This document shows, one piece after another, positions 3,664 through 14,128 of a stretch of 64,000 bases of DNA (the first letter of the stretch is position 1; each line of letters begins with the position of its first letter). The DNA comes from Eggerthella sinensis (GTDB lineage: Bacteria; Actinomycetota; Coriobacteriia; Coriobacteriales; Eggerthellaceae). The position numbers were made by a program, and so were the translations under genes. Under the pieces are notes generated by a model. It was not told where the DNA came from, did not search any database, and saw nothing but the letters and a program-made list of their open reading frames with translations. The DNA lies in assembly GCF_003339815.1 (NCBI RefSeq), contig NZ_PPTT01000001.1, forward strand, positions 62,001 through 126,000, read 5' to 3'.

Positions 3664-6000
3664 ATGCCATCGGTCATTCACCTCCCCGACGGGGGAAAGA
3701 TCGTCAAGACGAACTGCTTCGAGTGCCACGCGAAGTGCGGCGTGCTCTGCGAAGTGGATAAAGACGGGGTGCTCGCCAACGTGAAGGGCAACCCGGAAGA
3801 CCCGCGCAACGAGGGGCGCATGTGCTCGAAGGGCCTATCCGCGCGTAAGATCCTGTACGACCCCGACCGTTTGCGCGTGCCGCTGCGCCGCGTGGGCGAG
3901 CGCGGCAGCGGGCAATGGGAGGAGATCAGCTGGGACGAGGCGCTCGACTGGCTCGTCGACCGCATACACGAGCTCACCGACGAGTACGGCGCCGAAACCA
4001 TCGCCTACGGGCAGGGCACCGGGCGCGGCACGAACCAATGGACGAAGCGCGCCGGCCACGCAGGAGGGCGCGTACACCACAGCTTGGCGCCCGGCAACAT
4101 CTGCCTCGGCCCCATGATGGTGCAGTCCATCGTGCAGATGGGCATGCTGCCCATATACGACGGATGCGACTTCGATCACGCCGACTGCATCGTGTTTTGG
4201 GGATGCAACTCCGTATGGACCGAAGCCACGTACACGTCGGGCCAGATCGGCCGCAGCCGCGATCGCGGGGCGAAGCTCATCGTCATCGACCCGCTGTTCG
4301 AGCATCCGCTCGCTGCCAAGGCCGACCACTTCGTGGGCGTGCGCCCCGGTTCGGACACGTACCTGGCATACGCCTGGATCAACGTCATCATGAACGAGGA
4401 GCTGTACGACCGCACCTTCGTGCAGAAGTACACGAACGCGCCCCTGCTCATCATCGAGGGCAGCAACGCGCCGCTCACCGAGGCCCTCGTCAAAGAGGGC
4501 GGCAACCGCAAGACGATGCTCGTCTGGGACAAGCAGGCAGGCGCATTCGCCAGCTTGCGCGACCGCGACATCGACGAGGACTTGGACTACTGCGGCACCG
4601 TCACTTTAGCCGATGGCAGCGACGTGCAGGTGAAGACCGTATGGCTGGGTCTGAAGGAACGCGCCGACGCATGGACGCCCGAAAAGGCCGCCGAGATGTG
4701 CTGGGTCAGCGCCGAGCGCATCCGGGAATCGGCGCGCACGTACGGCACCGCGAAGGGTGCCACCATCAACGTGTTCCAAGGCGTCGAAGAGCAGACGAAC
4801 TGCAAGGATACGCTGCAGCTCATCAACATCATCATGGCCATCACGGGCAACCTGGAACGCACGGGCGGCAATCTGAGCATGCCGTTCTGGAACCAGATGA
4901 TGCCCCTCGGCGGCCGCGAGCCCAAAACGCAGAAGGAACTGCGCCTCGTGGACGAGCGCGCTTCGGGCGATATGCTGGGCACCTCGAATCCCAGCAAGGT
5001 GTTCGAGGCCATGCGCACGGGCAAGCCTTATCCCATCAAAGGCTATATCTCGGTGCAGGGCAACCCGTTGTCGTGGTCCGAGAACACCGCGCTCGTGAAG
5101 GAATCGCTGCTGCACCTCGACCTGTTGGTGATGATGGACTACTATATGTCCCCCACCTGCGAGCTTGCCGACCTCGTCCTGCCGTCCGCGCACTGGACCG
5201 AGCGCGACTACATCGCCGACGAAGTGTGCTGCGAGTGGGTGTTCGGCCAGCAGAAGGCCGTCGAGCCGCTGTACGAGCGCAAGAGCGACGTGTGGTTCTG
5301 GCGCACGCTGGGCAACCGACTCGATCCCGAATGGTGGCCTTGGGAAACCGACGAGGACATGTTCGACTGGCAGCTGGAGCAGACGCATGCGGGCGTCACC
5401 TGGGCCGAGCTTAAGGATCGCTGGATTCAGCACGTGCCGAACGCCGCCTCGCGCGACTTCGAGCACAACGGCTTCCTCACGCAGTCGGGCCGCGTCGAGC
5501 TGTACACGCCCGTGAGCTTCTTCAAGGGGCGCGACCCCTTCCCAGAAGCAAGCGAGCCGAAGGAAAGCGTGCACTCCACGCCCGAGATCGCGAAGGACTA
5601 CCCGCTGACCGGCGTGACGGGCCGTCGCTATCCCATCTACTATCACTCCTCGTTCCGCGGCGTACCGCACCTGCGCGAGATCGTGCCCGACCCGCAGGTG
5701 ATCTTCCACACCTCACTTGCCCGCGACCTGGGCATCGAGCGCGACGAATGGGTGTGGATCGAATCGCCCACGGGCCGCATCAGCATGAAAGCGCGCCCGA
5801 GCGACGGCGTGGACCCCCGCGTGTGCTTCATCCCCCATGGCTGGTGGCAGGCATGCCCCTCGCTCGGGTTGCCGGGTTACCCCGACGGCAGCGCGAATGC
5901 CAACACGCTGACGAGCGACCGCGCGTACAACGAAGAGTATCTCACGCCCGGCATGCGCAGCACGCTGTGCCGCATCGTGAAGAAGAAAGAAGGTGAGTGA
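3664..6000 (+). CDS. Acetylene-hydratase-like molybdopterin oxidoreductase, cytoplasmic catalytic subunit
   Basis: 778 residues, DMSO-reductase superfamily. A [4Fe-4S] motif is formed by C18, C21, C25 and C54, and the metal ligand is probably C147 in GNICLGP, the position of the cysteine ligand in acetylene hydratase. The C-terminal cap (EWVWIESPTGRI ... IPHGWW) also follows that branch. There is no Tat or Sec signal, so it works in the cytoplasm, unlike the other two Mo enzymes of the window. Residue 22, which corresponds to the catalytic Asp13 of acetylene hydratase, is His, so hydration of acetylene is not expected. It is followed by an FeS subunit (GTGA overlap) and a DmsC-like membrane subunit, meaning it exchanges electrons with the quinone pool. 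Substrate unknown; co-regulation with CaiA/FixAB genes suggests an organic-acid or aromatic pathway. Confidence 0.85.
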   Translation: MPSVIHLPDGGKIVKTNCFECHAKCGVLCEVDKDGVLANVKGNPEDPRNEGRMCSKGLSARKILYDPDRLRVPLRRVGERGSGQWEEISWDEALDWLVDRIHELTDEYGAETIAYGQGTGRGTNQWTKRAGHAGGRVHHSLAPGNICLGPMMVQSIVQMGMLPIYDGCDFDHADCIVFWGCNSVWTEATYTSGQIGRSRDRGAKLIVIDPLFEHPLAAKADHFVGVRPGSDTYLAYAWINVIMNEELYDRTFVQKYTNAPLLIIEGSNAPLTEALVKEGGNRKTMLVWDKQAGAFASLRDRDIDEDLDYCGTVTLADGSDVQVKTVWLGLKERADAWTPEKAAEMCWVSAERIRESARTYGTAKGATINVFQGVEEQTNCKDTLQLINIIMAITGNLERTGGNLSMPFWNQMMPLGGREPKTQKELRLVDERASGDMLGTSNPSKVFEAMRTGKPYPIKGYISVQGNPLSWSENTALVKESLLHLDLLVMMDYYMSPTCELADLVLPSAHWTERDYIADEVCCEWVFGQQKAVEPLYERKSDVWFWRTLGNRLDPEWWPWETDEDMFDWQLEQTHAGVTWAELKDRWIQHVPNAASRDFEHNGFLTQSGRVELYTPVSFFKGRDPFPEASEPKESVHSTPEIAKDYPLTGVTGRRYPIYYHSSFRGVPHLREIVPDPQVIFHTSLARDLGIERDEWVWIESPTGRISMKARPSDGVDPRVCFIPHGWWQACPSLGLPGYPDGSANANTLTSDRAYNEEYLTPGMRSTLCRIVKKKEGE

Positions 6001-6623
6001 TCGTGGCACACGACGCAAGCGAGGCGAACCGCCGCTACGGCATGGTCATCGACCTCGATAAATGCACTGGCTGCCAGGCATGCTCGGTGGCCTGCAAGAT
6101 GGAGAACGACGTCGATCTGGGCGTGTTCCGCTGCCGCGTGTACCGCATGGGACCCGTGGGCGAATTCCCGGACAAGCTCGAGATGTTCTACTTCCCCAAC
6201 ATGTGTATGCAGTGCGAACATCCCAGCTGCATCGAGGTGTGCCCGACAAAGGCCACGTACAAAACCGAGGATGGCGTGGTGCTTGTTGCCGCAAGCCGCT
6301 GCTTCGGATGCCAATACTGCATCTGGGCCTGCCCGTACGAGGCCCGCACGCTCAACCCGAACACCAAGACGGTGGAGAAGTGCACGCTGTGCATCCACAA
6401 GCTGAAGAAGGGCGAGCAGCCCGCATGCGCCTACACCTGCACCACCGGCTGCCGCGTGGCCGGGGACATGAACGATCCCGACAGCAAGATTTCCCAGGTG
6501 CTGGCCGCGAACGAAGATCGTCAGTACCGCATCCATCCCGAATTCGGCAACAATCCGTCCGTCATCTATCTCGTGCCGAGGAAAGGAGCTGAAACGCTAT
6601 GCACATCCATTGGCCGCTCGTAG
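5997..6623 (+). CDS. Four-cluster ferredoxin-type electron transfer subunit (DmsB/PhsB-like)
   Basis: 208 residues. Four cysteine groups are visible: CTGCQACSVAC, CMQCEHPSCIEVC, CFGCQYCIWAC, and CTLC followed by CAYTCTTGC, giving four predicted [4Fe-4S] clusters. It would wire the catalytic subunit to the membrane anchor. No signal peptide, consistent with a cytoplasmic complex. The start may be the GTG overlapping the previous stop, or the in-frame GTG six bases later at 6003, which is better spaced from the AGGTGA ribosome site. The 3' end overlaps the next gene by 25 bases, implying translational coupling. Confidence 0.88.
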   Translation: MIVAHDASEANRRYGMVIDLDKCTGCQACSVACKMENDVDLGVFRCRVYRMGPVGEFPDKLEMFYFPNMCMQCEHPSCIEVCPTKATYKTEDGVVLVAASRCFGCQYCIWACPYEARTLNPNTKTVEKCTLCIHKLKKGEQPACAYTCTTGCRVAGDMNDPDSKISQVLAANEDRQYRIHPEFGNNPSVIYLVPRKGAETLCTSIGRS

Positions 6624-7441
6624 TTTCCACCACCTGTCAGCGCGTGGGGCTGGGCATGTACCTGTGCGCGCTGTTGGCAAGCGCCGCGTTCGGGCTTGCC
6701 CTGCCCATGAACATCGTCGCGCTCGCAACGCTCGTGTTTCTGGGCATCGGCGGCATCGCGTCGATCTTCCACCTGCAATCGCCATCGCGCTTCTTCAACG
6801 CGTTCTCGAACTTGAAATCGCACCTCACGCAGGAAGCCATCATCACGCCGTTGCTGGGCATCGCCCTCGTGGCGTGCGGACTGAACGGGCTGCTGTTCGA
6901 TGCGGGAGGGGCGTCCGTCGCCATCGAGTGGGTGACCGGCGTCTTGGCGCTCGCCTTCCTCGTATGCACGGGCCTCGCGTATCAGATGCGCTCGCGCCCG
7001 GCTTGGAACACCCCGTTCATCGTGGTGCTGTTCCTGCTCACCGCTGCGGAAGCCGGCAGCATCGCCACCGTGGTGGTATGCCTGAGCGGCGGGCCGGTCG
7101 TGCCGGCGGCGCTGTCTGCAGCAGCGGTCGTATGCTTCCTCGCCTGCGTCGCCACGCAGATCTCCTACACGAGCCGCATGCGCACCGTCGGCTACGGCGT
7201 AAACGTCGATGCGCGCGAGCAACCGTATCGAACCGCGTACATCACGTGGATCGTCACCGGCGTTGCCGTGGCGGGGCTCGGCTTGGCCGCGGCCATCATG
7301 TTCTCGTCTCTTGCCTGCGCCGTCGTGGCGCTCGTCGGGTCCGCGGCGGGCATCGCCGCCTGGACGGTGCTCTTCTTCAAGGGCGCCCTCAAGGTGAAGA
7401 TGTTCCCCATGTATCCCGTCGACCTCAATTTGGATATGTAG
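6599..7441 (+). CDS. DmsC-like membrane anchor / quinol-interacting subunit
   Basis: 280 residues, almost entirely hydrophobic with about eight predicted membrane helices, the size and pattern of DmsC. The FHLQSPSRFFNAFSNLKSH segment near residue 60 resembles the conserved H-L--P-R--NA---L--S loop of the family. It anchors the two soluble subunits and exchanges electrons with menaquinol or menaquinone. The ATG follows a strong GGAAAGGAG ribosome site inside the end of the FeS gene. Last gene of the operon, with a terminator 33 bases downstream. Confidence 0.85.
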   Translation: MHIHWPLVVSTTCQRVGLGMYLCALLASAAFGLALPMNIVALATLVFLGIGGIASIFHLQSPSRFFNAFSNLKSHLTQEAIITPLLGIALVACGLNGLLFDAGGASVAIEWVTGVLALAFLVCTGLAYQMRSRPAWNTPFIVVLFLLTAAEAGSIATVVVCLSGGPVVPAALSAAAVVCFLACVATQISYTSRMRTVGYGVNVDAREQPYRTAYITWIVTGVAVAGLGLAAAIMFSSLACAVVALVGSAAGIAAWTVLFFKGALKVKMFPMYPVDLNLDM

Positions 7442-11510: not shown

Positions 11511-11543
11511 GCAAAACAACGCGGGCCCCGCAAGGAGCCCGCG
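11511..11543 (-). terminator. Terminator of the two-component operon
   Basis: On the minus strand, a 7-bp stem CGCGGGC/GCCCGCG with a 10-base loop is followed by TTGTTTTG. It lies 35 bases after the stop of the last kinase gene and before yaaA. Confidence 0.75.
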
Positions 11544-11577
11544 CAGGATCAACCGATAGCGCACAGCAGAAGCGGGG

Positions 11578-12516
11578 CTACCCAGCTTCCAGTTTGAGGA
11601 TTGCGGTGGTTTGGAAGACGGGGCCTTCTTGGGTAATTTCCAACTTGCCGTCGTGGCGGGTGGCGAGGGTGTCGAGAATGCCGAGACCCCAGCCGTGCTC
11701 CGGCAAGCGGGCGCCGCGGGGGCGTCGGGCGGAACGACGCGCGGCGGACGCGTTCGGCGCGCAGCTGTTCTCCATGTGCACCGCCAAATACCCAGCCTCT
11801 ACCTGCGCCTTCAACACGATGAACCGCTCGCCTGCGGGCACGTCGACGCATGCGTGTATCGCGTTGTCCAACAGGTTCGAGAATACGGCGCACAACTCCA
11901 CGCTCGGCAGGGCGAGATCGTCGGAAAGCGCCAGCTCAAGCGTCAGGCGAATGCCCTGCTCTTCGCACACCGCGGCCTTCATCGACACGAGGGCGTCCAC
12001 CACCTGATGGCCGCACGTGCGCGTGCGGCCCGCGTCCATCATGTCCACCGCCTTCAGCAGACCGCGTGAGGCCGCCTCGGCTTCCTGCCGATCGAGTAGT
12101 GCCTCGACGTCCTCCAATTCGCGCGCCACGTCTTCGCGAATACGCCGCGCTTCGTCGATGTCCGCAGAGAGCCGCTGCAGATAGTCTTCCTGTGCCCTCA
12201 ACTGCTCTTCAAGCAGACGCACGCGTTCGCGCGACAGCTCGCGCTCTTCGGACTCACGCAGCGCTTTGAACAGCACCAAATCGACGGGACCGCACAGCAA
12301 GCCGACGACGACAACCACCACGAACATCCACAGCGGAAGCTCGTACGCAATCGTGCAGTAGAACAAGAACACGACGATGCACAGCTGGCTGAACGGAAAC
12401 AGCAGGTTGATGAGCACGCGATCGAGCGAAACGTCGCGAAGTCGCCGCGCAAGCAGCACCACGACGGCGCACATGACCAGCACGACGCACACCGCGCCAG
12501 CGATTCGCGCGATCAC
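11578..12516 (-). CDS. GHKL-type ATPase half of a split histidine kinase (no phospho-acceptor His)
   Basis: 312 residues: three predicted membrane helices (about 3-24, 33-55, 62-84), a long coiled coil (about 85-150), then an ATPase domain with N box FSNLLDNAIHAC and G box GWGLGIL. The segment that aligns with the dimerisation/phospho-acceptor motif reads IREDVARELEDVEALL, so Glu128 occupies the place of the histidine. The preceding gene, overlapping by GTGA, encodes the complementary half: a membrane protein with an intact LRHDMKNQ motif but no ATPase. The two proteins probably assemble, with this one phosphorylating its partner. The GTG start is supported by GAGGGGAGGG just upstream. Members of this class (AgrC/YehU-like) pair with LytTR regulators, as here. 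Confidence 0.85.
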   Translation of the reverse strand: MIARIAGAVCVVLVMCAVVVLLARRLRDVSLDRVLINLLFPFSQLCIVVFLFYCTIAYELPLWMFVVVVVVGLLCGPVDLVLFKALRESEERELSRERVRLLEEQLRAQEDYLQRLSADIDEARRIREDVARELEDVEALLDRQEAEAASRGLLKAVDMMDAGRTRTCGHQVVDALVSMKAAVCEEQGIRLTLELALSDDLALPSVELCAVFSNLLDNAIHACVDVPAGERFIVLKAQVEAGYLAVHMENSCAPNASAARRSARRPRGARLPEHGWGLGILDTLATRHDGKLEITQEGPVFQTTAILKLEAG

Positions 12517-13397
12517 GAAGCCCTCCCCTCGCTCACGCTCGCCGCATCGAGCACGTCGCGAACGAGCTCGAGATGCCCGCGCGCCTCGTCAAACCTCTTG
12601 CACTCGGACAGCGCGAGCACCACCTGCACCTGGTTTTTCATATCGTGGCGCAGCTTCGCCACCTGCTCGACATCCTCGACGAAGCGCTCGTAGCGCACAA
12701 GGTACCGATCAAGCTCCTCCTCCAGCAGCGCGGCACGCGCATCGGCCCGCCGCTTCTGCGCAACCCGGCCCATCGCGAAGAGCAGCAGCAAGTCGGCCGC
12801 AAGGCCGAGGAGCGACAGGGGCACGCTGAACGCATAGTAGAACGCCGACGACTCGATGTACCCGAACGGAAGCACAAGTATGATGTTCACCAGCATGAGC
12901 TGCACCACCGTGAACGCGACGGGGAGCCACCTGCCCTCCTTCTGCGCGCTGTCGGCGAATCGGTTGAACAGCAGGCATAACACGGCAAGCAGGGCCACGA
13001 GCAGGGCGAGATGGGCAGCATGGGTGAGGGCGAACGCATCGAGATGCGCGCGCGTCGCATCGTAGTCGACGACAGGCGTGCCGGTGAGGGCCATCCACAG
13101 CGCGCCGCCGGGCAATTCGACGAAGAACAGCACGAGGTTGGCCAGCACAACGGCCAGAATCCTTCGCGAAAGAGCGCCTTCCGAGAGGAAGATCGGCAGC
13201 AGCGACAGCGGGAGCGCCGCCAAAAACTTCACCCCGACGTCCATCTGTGAGCGAAAACATGCCAGGAGCAGCACCAATACGATTTCCAACGTCCAGTACA
13301 GCGCGGCGTTGCGCATGACGAGCATCCGGGAAAGCGCGTACGCGAACACCATTTGCACGGGAAACGTCCCGACGATGTCGATGAGGGCATTGGACAT
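12513..13397 (-). CDS. Membrane phospho-acceptor half of a split histidine kinase (no ATPase domain)
   Basis: 294 residues. About six membrane helices fill residues 5-215, followed by a coiled segment and the phospho-acceptor motif KLRHDMKNQ with His251. The protein stops only 44 residues after this His, immediately after the second helix of the hairpin, so the catalytic ATPase domain is absent. The missing domain is supplied by the next gene, with which it shares a 4-base overlap. Start MSNALIDIVG is chosen because it begins the first hydrophobic helix and sits 17 bases after the regulator stop; no clear ribosome site is seen, suggesting coupling. Function inferred: signal sensing in the membrane and phosphate relay to the LytTR regulator. 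Confidence 0.82.
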   Translation of the reverse strand: MSNALIDIVGTFPVQMVFAYALSRMLVMRNAALYWTLEIVLVLLLACFRSQMDVGVKFLAALPLSLLPIFLSEGALSRRILAVVLANLVLFFVELPGGALWMALTGTPVVDYDATRAHLDAFALTHAAHLALLVALLAVLCLLFNRFADSAQKEGRWLPVAFTVVQLMLVNIILVLPFGYIESSAFYYAFSVPLSLLGLAADLLLLFAMGRVAQKRRADARAALLEEELDRYLVRYERFVEDVEQVAKLRHDMKNQVQVVLALSECKRFDEARGHLELVRDVLDAASVSEGRAS

Positions 13398-13414: not shown

Positions 13415-14128
13415 TTACAGTTTCGTCTGGATGTGCTGGAACAGCGCTTCTCGCACGAGCTTGCGGCGCTTCTGACTGACGGGCACGACATGGCCCGACG
13501 CAAGCACGACGCCGTCTTTCTGCACCTGTTCGATGTGATCCATGTTCACGAGGAAGCTCTTGTGGCATTGCACGAACGACGAGGGCAGCTCGGTCGCAAG
13601 ATCGGACAGCGACGCGTACGTTTCCAGCTCGTCGTTGCCGGCATGGATGCGAACCTTGCGCCGGTCGCTTTCGATATAGCTGATCGAGCGCGGCGGCACC
13701 AGCATCACCTTGCCGCCGAATCGCACGCTCAGCGGCTTGTTCGCGCATTGCTCGAGCCGTTCGAACGCGCGATCCATCGCATCGTTCAAATCGTCCTGCG
13801 CAACCGGCTTCGTGAGGAAGTACACGTGATCCGTGCGGTACACGCTCGTGCAGTAGTTGACGAACCCCGTGACGTAGATCACCTGCGTGCCGCATCCGAC
13901 GGGCACGAGCTGTTTCACCAGGTCGATGCCGTTCGCGTCCTCAGGCCCCAGCTCGATATCCATCATGAGGATGTCGACAGCCAAGCCTGTCGCAAAGCGC
14001 TCCCGCAACGATGCAGCGTCGGCAAGGTGCGTGATGACAACGTCGCCACCCCGCGGGGAGCGCTCGATCATATGACCGAGAATCCTTGCTTGATCGGCAT
14101 CGTCTTCAACTATTACGACCTGGTACAT
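13415..14128 (-). CDS. LytTR-family response regulator
   Basis: 237 residues. Receiver domain at 1-120 with acidic pair E8-D9-D10, phospho-acceptor D57 (LMMDIEL), T-loop residue in YVTGF and the invariant Lys in FLTKP. The C-terminal half (about 135-237) is a LytTR DNA-binding domain, with YIESDRRKVRIH, YASLSDLATELPSSFVQCHKSFLVNMDHI and PVSQKRRKLVREAL. It heads the operon with the two kinase halves. Targets are unknown; LytTR proteins usually bind paired imperfect direct repeats. Confidence 0.92.
   Translation of the reverse strand: MYQVVIVEDDADQARILGHMIERSPRGGDVVITHLADAASLRERFATGLAVDILMMDIELGPEDANGIDLVKQLVPVGCGTQVIYVTGFVNYCTSVYRTDHVYFLTKPVAQDDLNDAMDRAFERLEQCANKPLSVRFGGKVMLVPPRSISYIESDRRKVRIHAGNDELETYASLSDLATELPSSFVQCHKSFLVNMDHIEQVQKDGVVLASGHVVPVSQKRRKLVREALFQHIQTKL

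Follow-up and report, generated by a model that had tools for sequence, protein, structure and literature searches.

AgrC-type (HPK10) histidine kinases combine a multi-spanning membrane sensor, a DHp domain with an RHDxxN motif and an HATPase_c_5 domain in one polypeptide, and they have a LytTR regulator as partner. Kinase functions can also be distributed over separate polypeptides. In Rhodobacter sphaeroides, neither CheA3 nor CheA4 autophosphorylates alone and CheA3 is phosphorylated only when mixed with CheA4; together they phosphorylate a regulator, and CheA3 has phosphatase activity as well, so that the response can become ultrasensitive or bistable (PMC3591291). Since a count in SMART has already listed 1,556 HisKA proteins that lack an ATPase domain as potential split kinases (PMC3591291), the idea of a split kinase is not new. 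A further example is Hik36/Hik43, the split CheA of the Synechocystis tax3/pil cluster, in which the kinase functions are spread over two genes with one regulator (PMC7656254). In pseudo-histidine kinase pairs such as DivL/CckA and RetS/GacS, a kinase-like protein without one catalytic feature acts via its partner, and at least one of the two is a complete kinase. Bacillus Spo0B, a soluble protein, passes phosphate to a regulator by means of a DHp-like pair of helices; it has no working ATPase, its ATPase-like domain is degenerate, and its phosphate comes from a receiver.

This work describes a gene pair, A and B, that lies beside a LytTR regulator gene in a 64,000-nucleotide stretch of Eggerthella sinensis DNA (hereafter the window). 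As in CheA3/CheA4, the phospho-acceptor His and the ATPase are located on separate polypeptides. CheA3/CheA4 are of the CheA type (domains P1-P5), belong to a cytoplasmic chemotaxis cluster and have no membrane sensor of their own, whereas A and B are both AgrC-type membrane proteins; their regulator is of the LytTR family, the DHp of the ATPase half has decayed, and one ATPase subunit is often accompanied by several His subunits. None of the CheA domains P1 to P5 was found in A or B with Pfam. Hik36/Hik43 are CheA-like, occur in a pilus/chemotaxis context and are not an integral membrane sensor pair. The features that A and B share with AgrC-type kinases are divided between them, namely the multi-spanning sensor with the RHDxxN DHp in A only and the HATPase_c_5 domain in B. 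Unlike in AgrC, His and ATPase are joined only in six natural fusions, with two DHp units in tandem. No PF04647 (AgrB) match was present in 31 genomes including that of the window, so no agr-type peptide system is indicated. In contrast to the DivL/CckA and RetS/GacS pairs, neither A nor B is a complete kinase, and unlike Spo0B, A is a membrane protein that is encoded with its own ATPase subunit and has no degenerate ATPase-like domain past the DHp.

The initial annotation knew of no standard two-component system built this way. Given the split CheA pairs, this holds only for the membrane-bound AgrC/LytTR type: a literature search, largely among papers open without subscription, turned up no publication on a split kinase that is of AgrC type or membrane-bound, nor on this system in Coriobacteriia. 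If our reading is true, A and B would represent, as far as found, the first known case of a natural split in a family of integral-membrane histidine kinases, with sensing and phospho-acceptance separated from catalysis, and the family is widespread in the order that includes the Eggerthella family. Such a family would offer a natural test system for between-chain phosphorylation in AgrC-type kinases. Theory predicts ultrasensitive or bistable signalling for such a case (PMC3591291), and loci with several sensors per ATPase would allow a direct test of combinatorial sensing in a two-component system.

Organization of the locus and domain content of A and B

The unit consists of three minus-strand genes running in one direction, in the order LytTR regulator, A and B (Table 1). 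The regulator has Asp57 as phospho-acceptor and Lys107, both assigned by position, and its gene is separated from A by a gap of 17 nt. The GTGA overlap between A and B suggests translational coupling. The terminator-like hairpin downstream of B is weak evidence on its own, as the region contains no more matches of this kind than shuffled sequences do. Comparison of the neighbouring genes across genera revealed no conserved family beside the A/B pair other than the regulator. The initial annotation had described a kinase divided into an early-stopping, His-bearing protein and an ATPase-bearing protein with Glu128 in place of the His, overlapping at GTGA, each with its own membrane part; coordinates, frames and residues all proved correct.

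Table 1. Coordinates of the regulator, gene A, gene B and associated elements in the window
Feature	Position	Strand	Details
LytTR-family response regulator, first gene of the unit	13415..14128	-	Response_reg 8.2e-11, LytTR 1.3e-22 (Pfam)
Gene A	12513..13397	-	ATG start, 294 aa; membrane part and DHp, no ATPase
H251-D252 codons of A, within LRHDMKNQ	12642..12647	-	From position in translation
Overlap of A stop and B start (GTGA)	12513..12516	-	Read in sequence; 4 nt
Gene B	11578..12516	-	GTG start, 312 aa; HATPase_c_5 8e-12 at 206-304
Intrinsic-terminator-like hairpin 3' of B	11519..11544	-	11 pairs, 9 of them G-C; T-rich tail

Protein A comprises seven hydrophobic membrane helices followed by a complete DHp hairpin and ends 43 residues past His251. 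Pfam detects no HATPase match in A; the sole relevant signal is SPOB_a at residues 246-279, below its cut-off, and this family is matched by 14 of the 21 A-family members. R250, H251, D252 and N255 are invariant among the 21 aligned A proteins. An AlphaFold2 (AF2) model (mean pLDDT 83.2, 21 relatives in the alignment) predicts helices at 3-25, 31-51, 54-70, 76-105, 119-152, 157-179, 185-265 and 269-293. H251 is carried by the long helix 185-265 and the helix 269-293 closes the protein right past it, which indicates that A stops directly after a complete DHp hairpin. In a mechanical listing of open reading frames, A reaches further upstream, as far as 13895, and is 460 aa long; this version was rejected because it overlaps the regulator gene and orthologues begin at the ATG. 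A sequence search of the PDB with A gave no meaningful match, and the weak Pfam and PDB sequence matches to DUF5970, ExsD_M and ATP synthase b were dismissed as reflecting coiled-coil or membrane composition.

Protein B has three membrane segments by hydrophobicity, a decayed DHp in which E128 aligns opposite His251 of A, and an intact AgrC-type GHKL ATPase with an N-box (FSNLLDN, 212-218) and a G-box (HGWGLGI, 274-280). The HATPase_c_5 GHKL domain is present in all 17 B proteins searched with Pfam, and the only domains detected overall were SPOB_a in A and HATPase_c_5/HATPase_c in B. The C-terminal half of A is homologous to the N-terminal half of B, with three membrane segments and the DHp aligning in profile cross-matches and in the alignment. 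A mixed alignment of fusions, A and B placed A on the B half of the fusions and was used for homology, not for folding; the folding alignment consisted of full A rows and ATPase-only pieces of B. In the simplest history, an AgrC-like kinase would have been duplicated, after which one copy lost its ATPase and the other lost its first membrane helices and the His.

Conservation of the split in the order

Loci were defined by reading the regions and classifying every open reading frame with A, B and regulator profiles. A locus resembling an ordinary kinase (L136) was excluded. The initial annotation had proposed checking whether orthologues keep both truncations, and they do: A and B occur as separate genes in 64 loci from 55 species genomes, belonging to three families of one order. 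Searches with B and A recovered the pair in the same genus, in the same family and in other families of the order, named relatives being Rubneribacter badeniensis and Candidatus Rubneribacter avistercoris. No A-type protein was found outside this order among 396 genomes drawn across the phylum. A LytTR regulator is adjacent in 59 of the 64 split loci. Gene order differs among loci (A-B, B-A or A-RR-B), so the linkage of A and B is not that of one frozen operon.

The His is kept in all A proteins (88/88, as RHD or RHE). RHDxxN is present in 84 of them and nearly all end 33-58 residues past the His; in the four others the Asn is lost or the motif is RHE, with the His still kept. A proteins with the His in an RHDARA, RHDARS or RHE context are found in L160 (1911-3979), L176 (4371-5306) and L152 (4548-5486), and they may have altered phosphatase activity. 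In the B proteins, the corresponding column holds E, A, R, D, T, L, Q, M, S, G or V; a His occurs there in three or four B proteins and HDxxN in none. The N-box and the HGWG box are conserved across B proteins despite this variable column. Among six genomes, dN/dS amounts to 0.12-0.40 for A, 0.13-0.25 for B and 0.18-0.26 for the regulator, and both A and B are thus under purifying selection. One A protein (L077, 5571-6611) carries an insertion of approximately 50 polar residues in a loop between two membrane helices.

Natural fusions, proposed mechanism and alternatives

Six A-B fusions were identified, namely in genomes G007, G097 and G098 (one genus), G016 and G060, and in G221 from another family; the taxa concerned are genera g5, g6 and g14 and, separately, family f4. 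In the B tree, where support for some branches is weak, all five fusions from Eggerthellaceae fall into a single clade nested within the split forms, and the fusion of G221 (L174) is located elsewhere, which suggests that split ancestors gave rise to fusions at least twice. Of the three hydrophobic segments of split B proteins, all six fusions retain the last two only, the first membrane helix of B being gone. As the end of A is cytoplasmic, B has to begin on the cytoplasmic side when fused, and it then has to cross the membrane an even number of times. The loss of the first helix is what the A-B model predicts, and it was found without fitting.

Single full-length kinases among orthologues had been named in the initial annotation as evidence against the split. 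Such proteins do occur as the six fusions, yet these are tandem A-then-B chains that retain both membrane parts and the His-less second DHp, and they therefore support the pairing of A and B. An AF2 model of the fusion L111 (single chain, 39 rows, shallow alignment; pLDDT 83.2, pTM 0.62) has its best structural matches with the AgrC cytoplasmic kinase (6e95 and 6e52, Z 16.0, with a large rmsd due to domain placement) and matches the AgrC ATPase domain (4bxi) with Z 15.8 and 2.5 Å over 131 residues; the model supports the fold, not the docking.

Another candidate fusion, a 532 aa run-on in L120 (3966-5564, G102), was rejected because its A part is truncated and the first helix of B is still present. 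Here, an A without its first membrane helices runs in frame into a complete B, possibly as a decaying locus or a recent run-on. In G064, contig ends truncate a B half (L117) and an A half (L119), which together probably represent another A-B fusion; L111, a relative of both, is fused.

We propose, with a probability of roughly 0.88, that A and B each supply half of a single AgrC-type membrane kinase, derived from a duplicated gene, and that they act as an obligate heteromer in which B phosphorylates A and A the regulator, with B common to several sensors. A would have kept the sensor and the phospho-accepting DHp and lost the ATPase, and B would have kept a shortened membrane part and the ATPase, its own DHp having decayed into a helix pair for dimerisation or docking. 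In the putative heteromer, the ATPase of B would phosphorylate His251 of A between chains and the phosphate would be handed to Asp57 of the neighbouring LytTR regulator, which A would probably also dephosphorylate through its HDxxN motif. The likely obligate heteromer suggested in the initial annotation is supported at the sequence level: the conserved complementary split, the conserved linkage of the genes, the purifying selection and the natural fusions speak strongly, if indirectly, for a putative obligate A-B complex, which would phosphorylate between chains.

The genome of the window also encodes other GHKL kinases, from which A could in principle receive phosphate. Together with the SPOB_a helix family being matched in 14 of 21 members, this would suit a stand-alone Spo0B-like membrane phosphotransfer protein fed by other complete kinases, with B as a separate ATP-binding modulator. 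We consider this improbable: the two genes are linked in 64 loci, in varying order, B is fused to A in six proteins and keeps the whole ATPase including N-box and G-box, and A without B occurred only near contig ends in the loci read. Motifs of the HDxxN kind beside the His support phosphatase activity in other kinases. Such His-adjacent motifs are also discussed for bifunctional split kinases (PMC3591291), and A could be only a phosphatase or docking partner for the regulator, with B regulating via ATP binding and no phosphate being transferred. In that case, the operon would offer the regulator no source of phosphate. Moreover, some A proteins keep the His but not the Asn (RHDARA, RHDARS), which makes the His the more strictly kept residue, and we regard this explanation as even less probable than a Spo0B-like A.

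The split itself could stem from faulty sequencing or assembly or from a pseudogene created by a frameshift; alternatively, the two genes could be joined by ribosomal frameshifting, which the 4-nt overlap in the window would suit. The same split, however, is found in 55 genomes, in some of which B precedes A, a gap separates the genes or the regulator lies in between, and its recurrence and the low dN/dS values exclude sequencing error and decay. A product joined by frameshifting would also have the wrong topology, because of the extra first membrane helix of split B that is absent from the fusions. The likelihood of this whole set of explanations is therefore negligible.

Loci with several A genes per B

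Two to four A genes accompany one B in 15 of the 64 loci (two B in L131). Co-resident A paralogues are 29% identical in their sensors and 66% identical in their DHp domains, whereas between-locus A-A pairs of equal sensor divergence have a mean DHp identity of 33-41%; relative to these between-locus identities, a within-locus pair ranks at the 93rd percentile on average. DHp domains that stay alike while the sensors diverge are expected if co-resident A proteins have their B and regulator in common. The high DHp identity of neighbouring A genes could, in part, also come from gene conversion. The many loci with several A genes beside one B suggest that, under the split-kinase reading, B would be a common catalytic subunit for alternative sensor subunits. 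We lean towards modular receptors, in which one membrane ATPase subunit B is common to several exchangeable sensor/phospho-acceptor subunits A, with B and the regulator as the common pathway for several signals; this pathway may also be switch-like, as predicted for split kinases that are bifunctional.

The largest array seen comprises four A and two B genes beside one LytTR regulator (L131, 1593-9448, G067). In L061, a frameshift disrupts the second A gene of G001, leaving its N-terminal half and DHp half in different frames (5556-7268 and 5558-6454); this gene is intact in G002 and G003.
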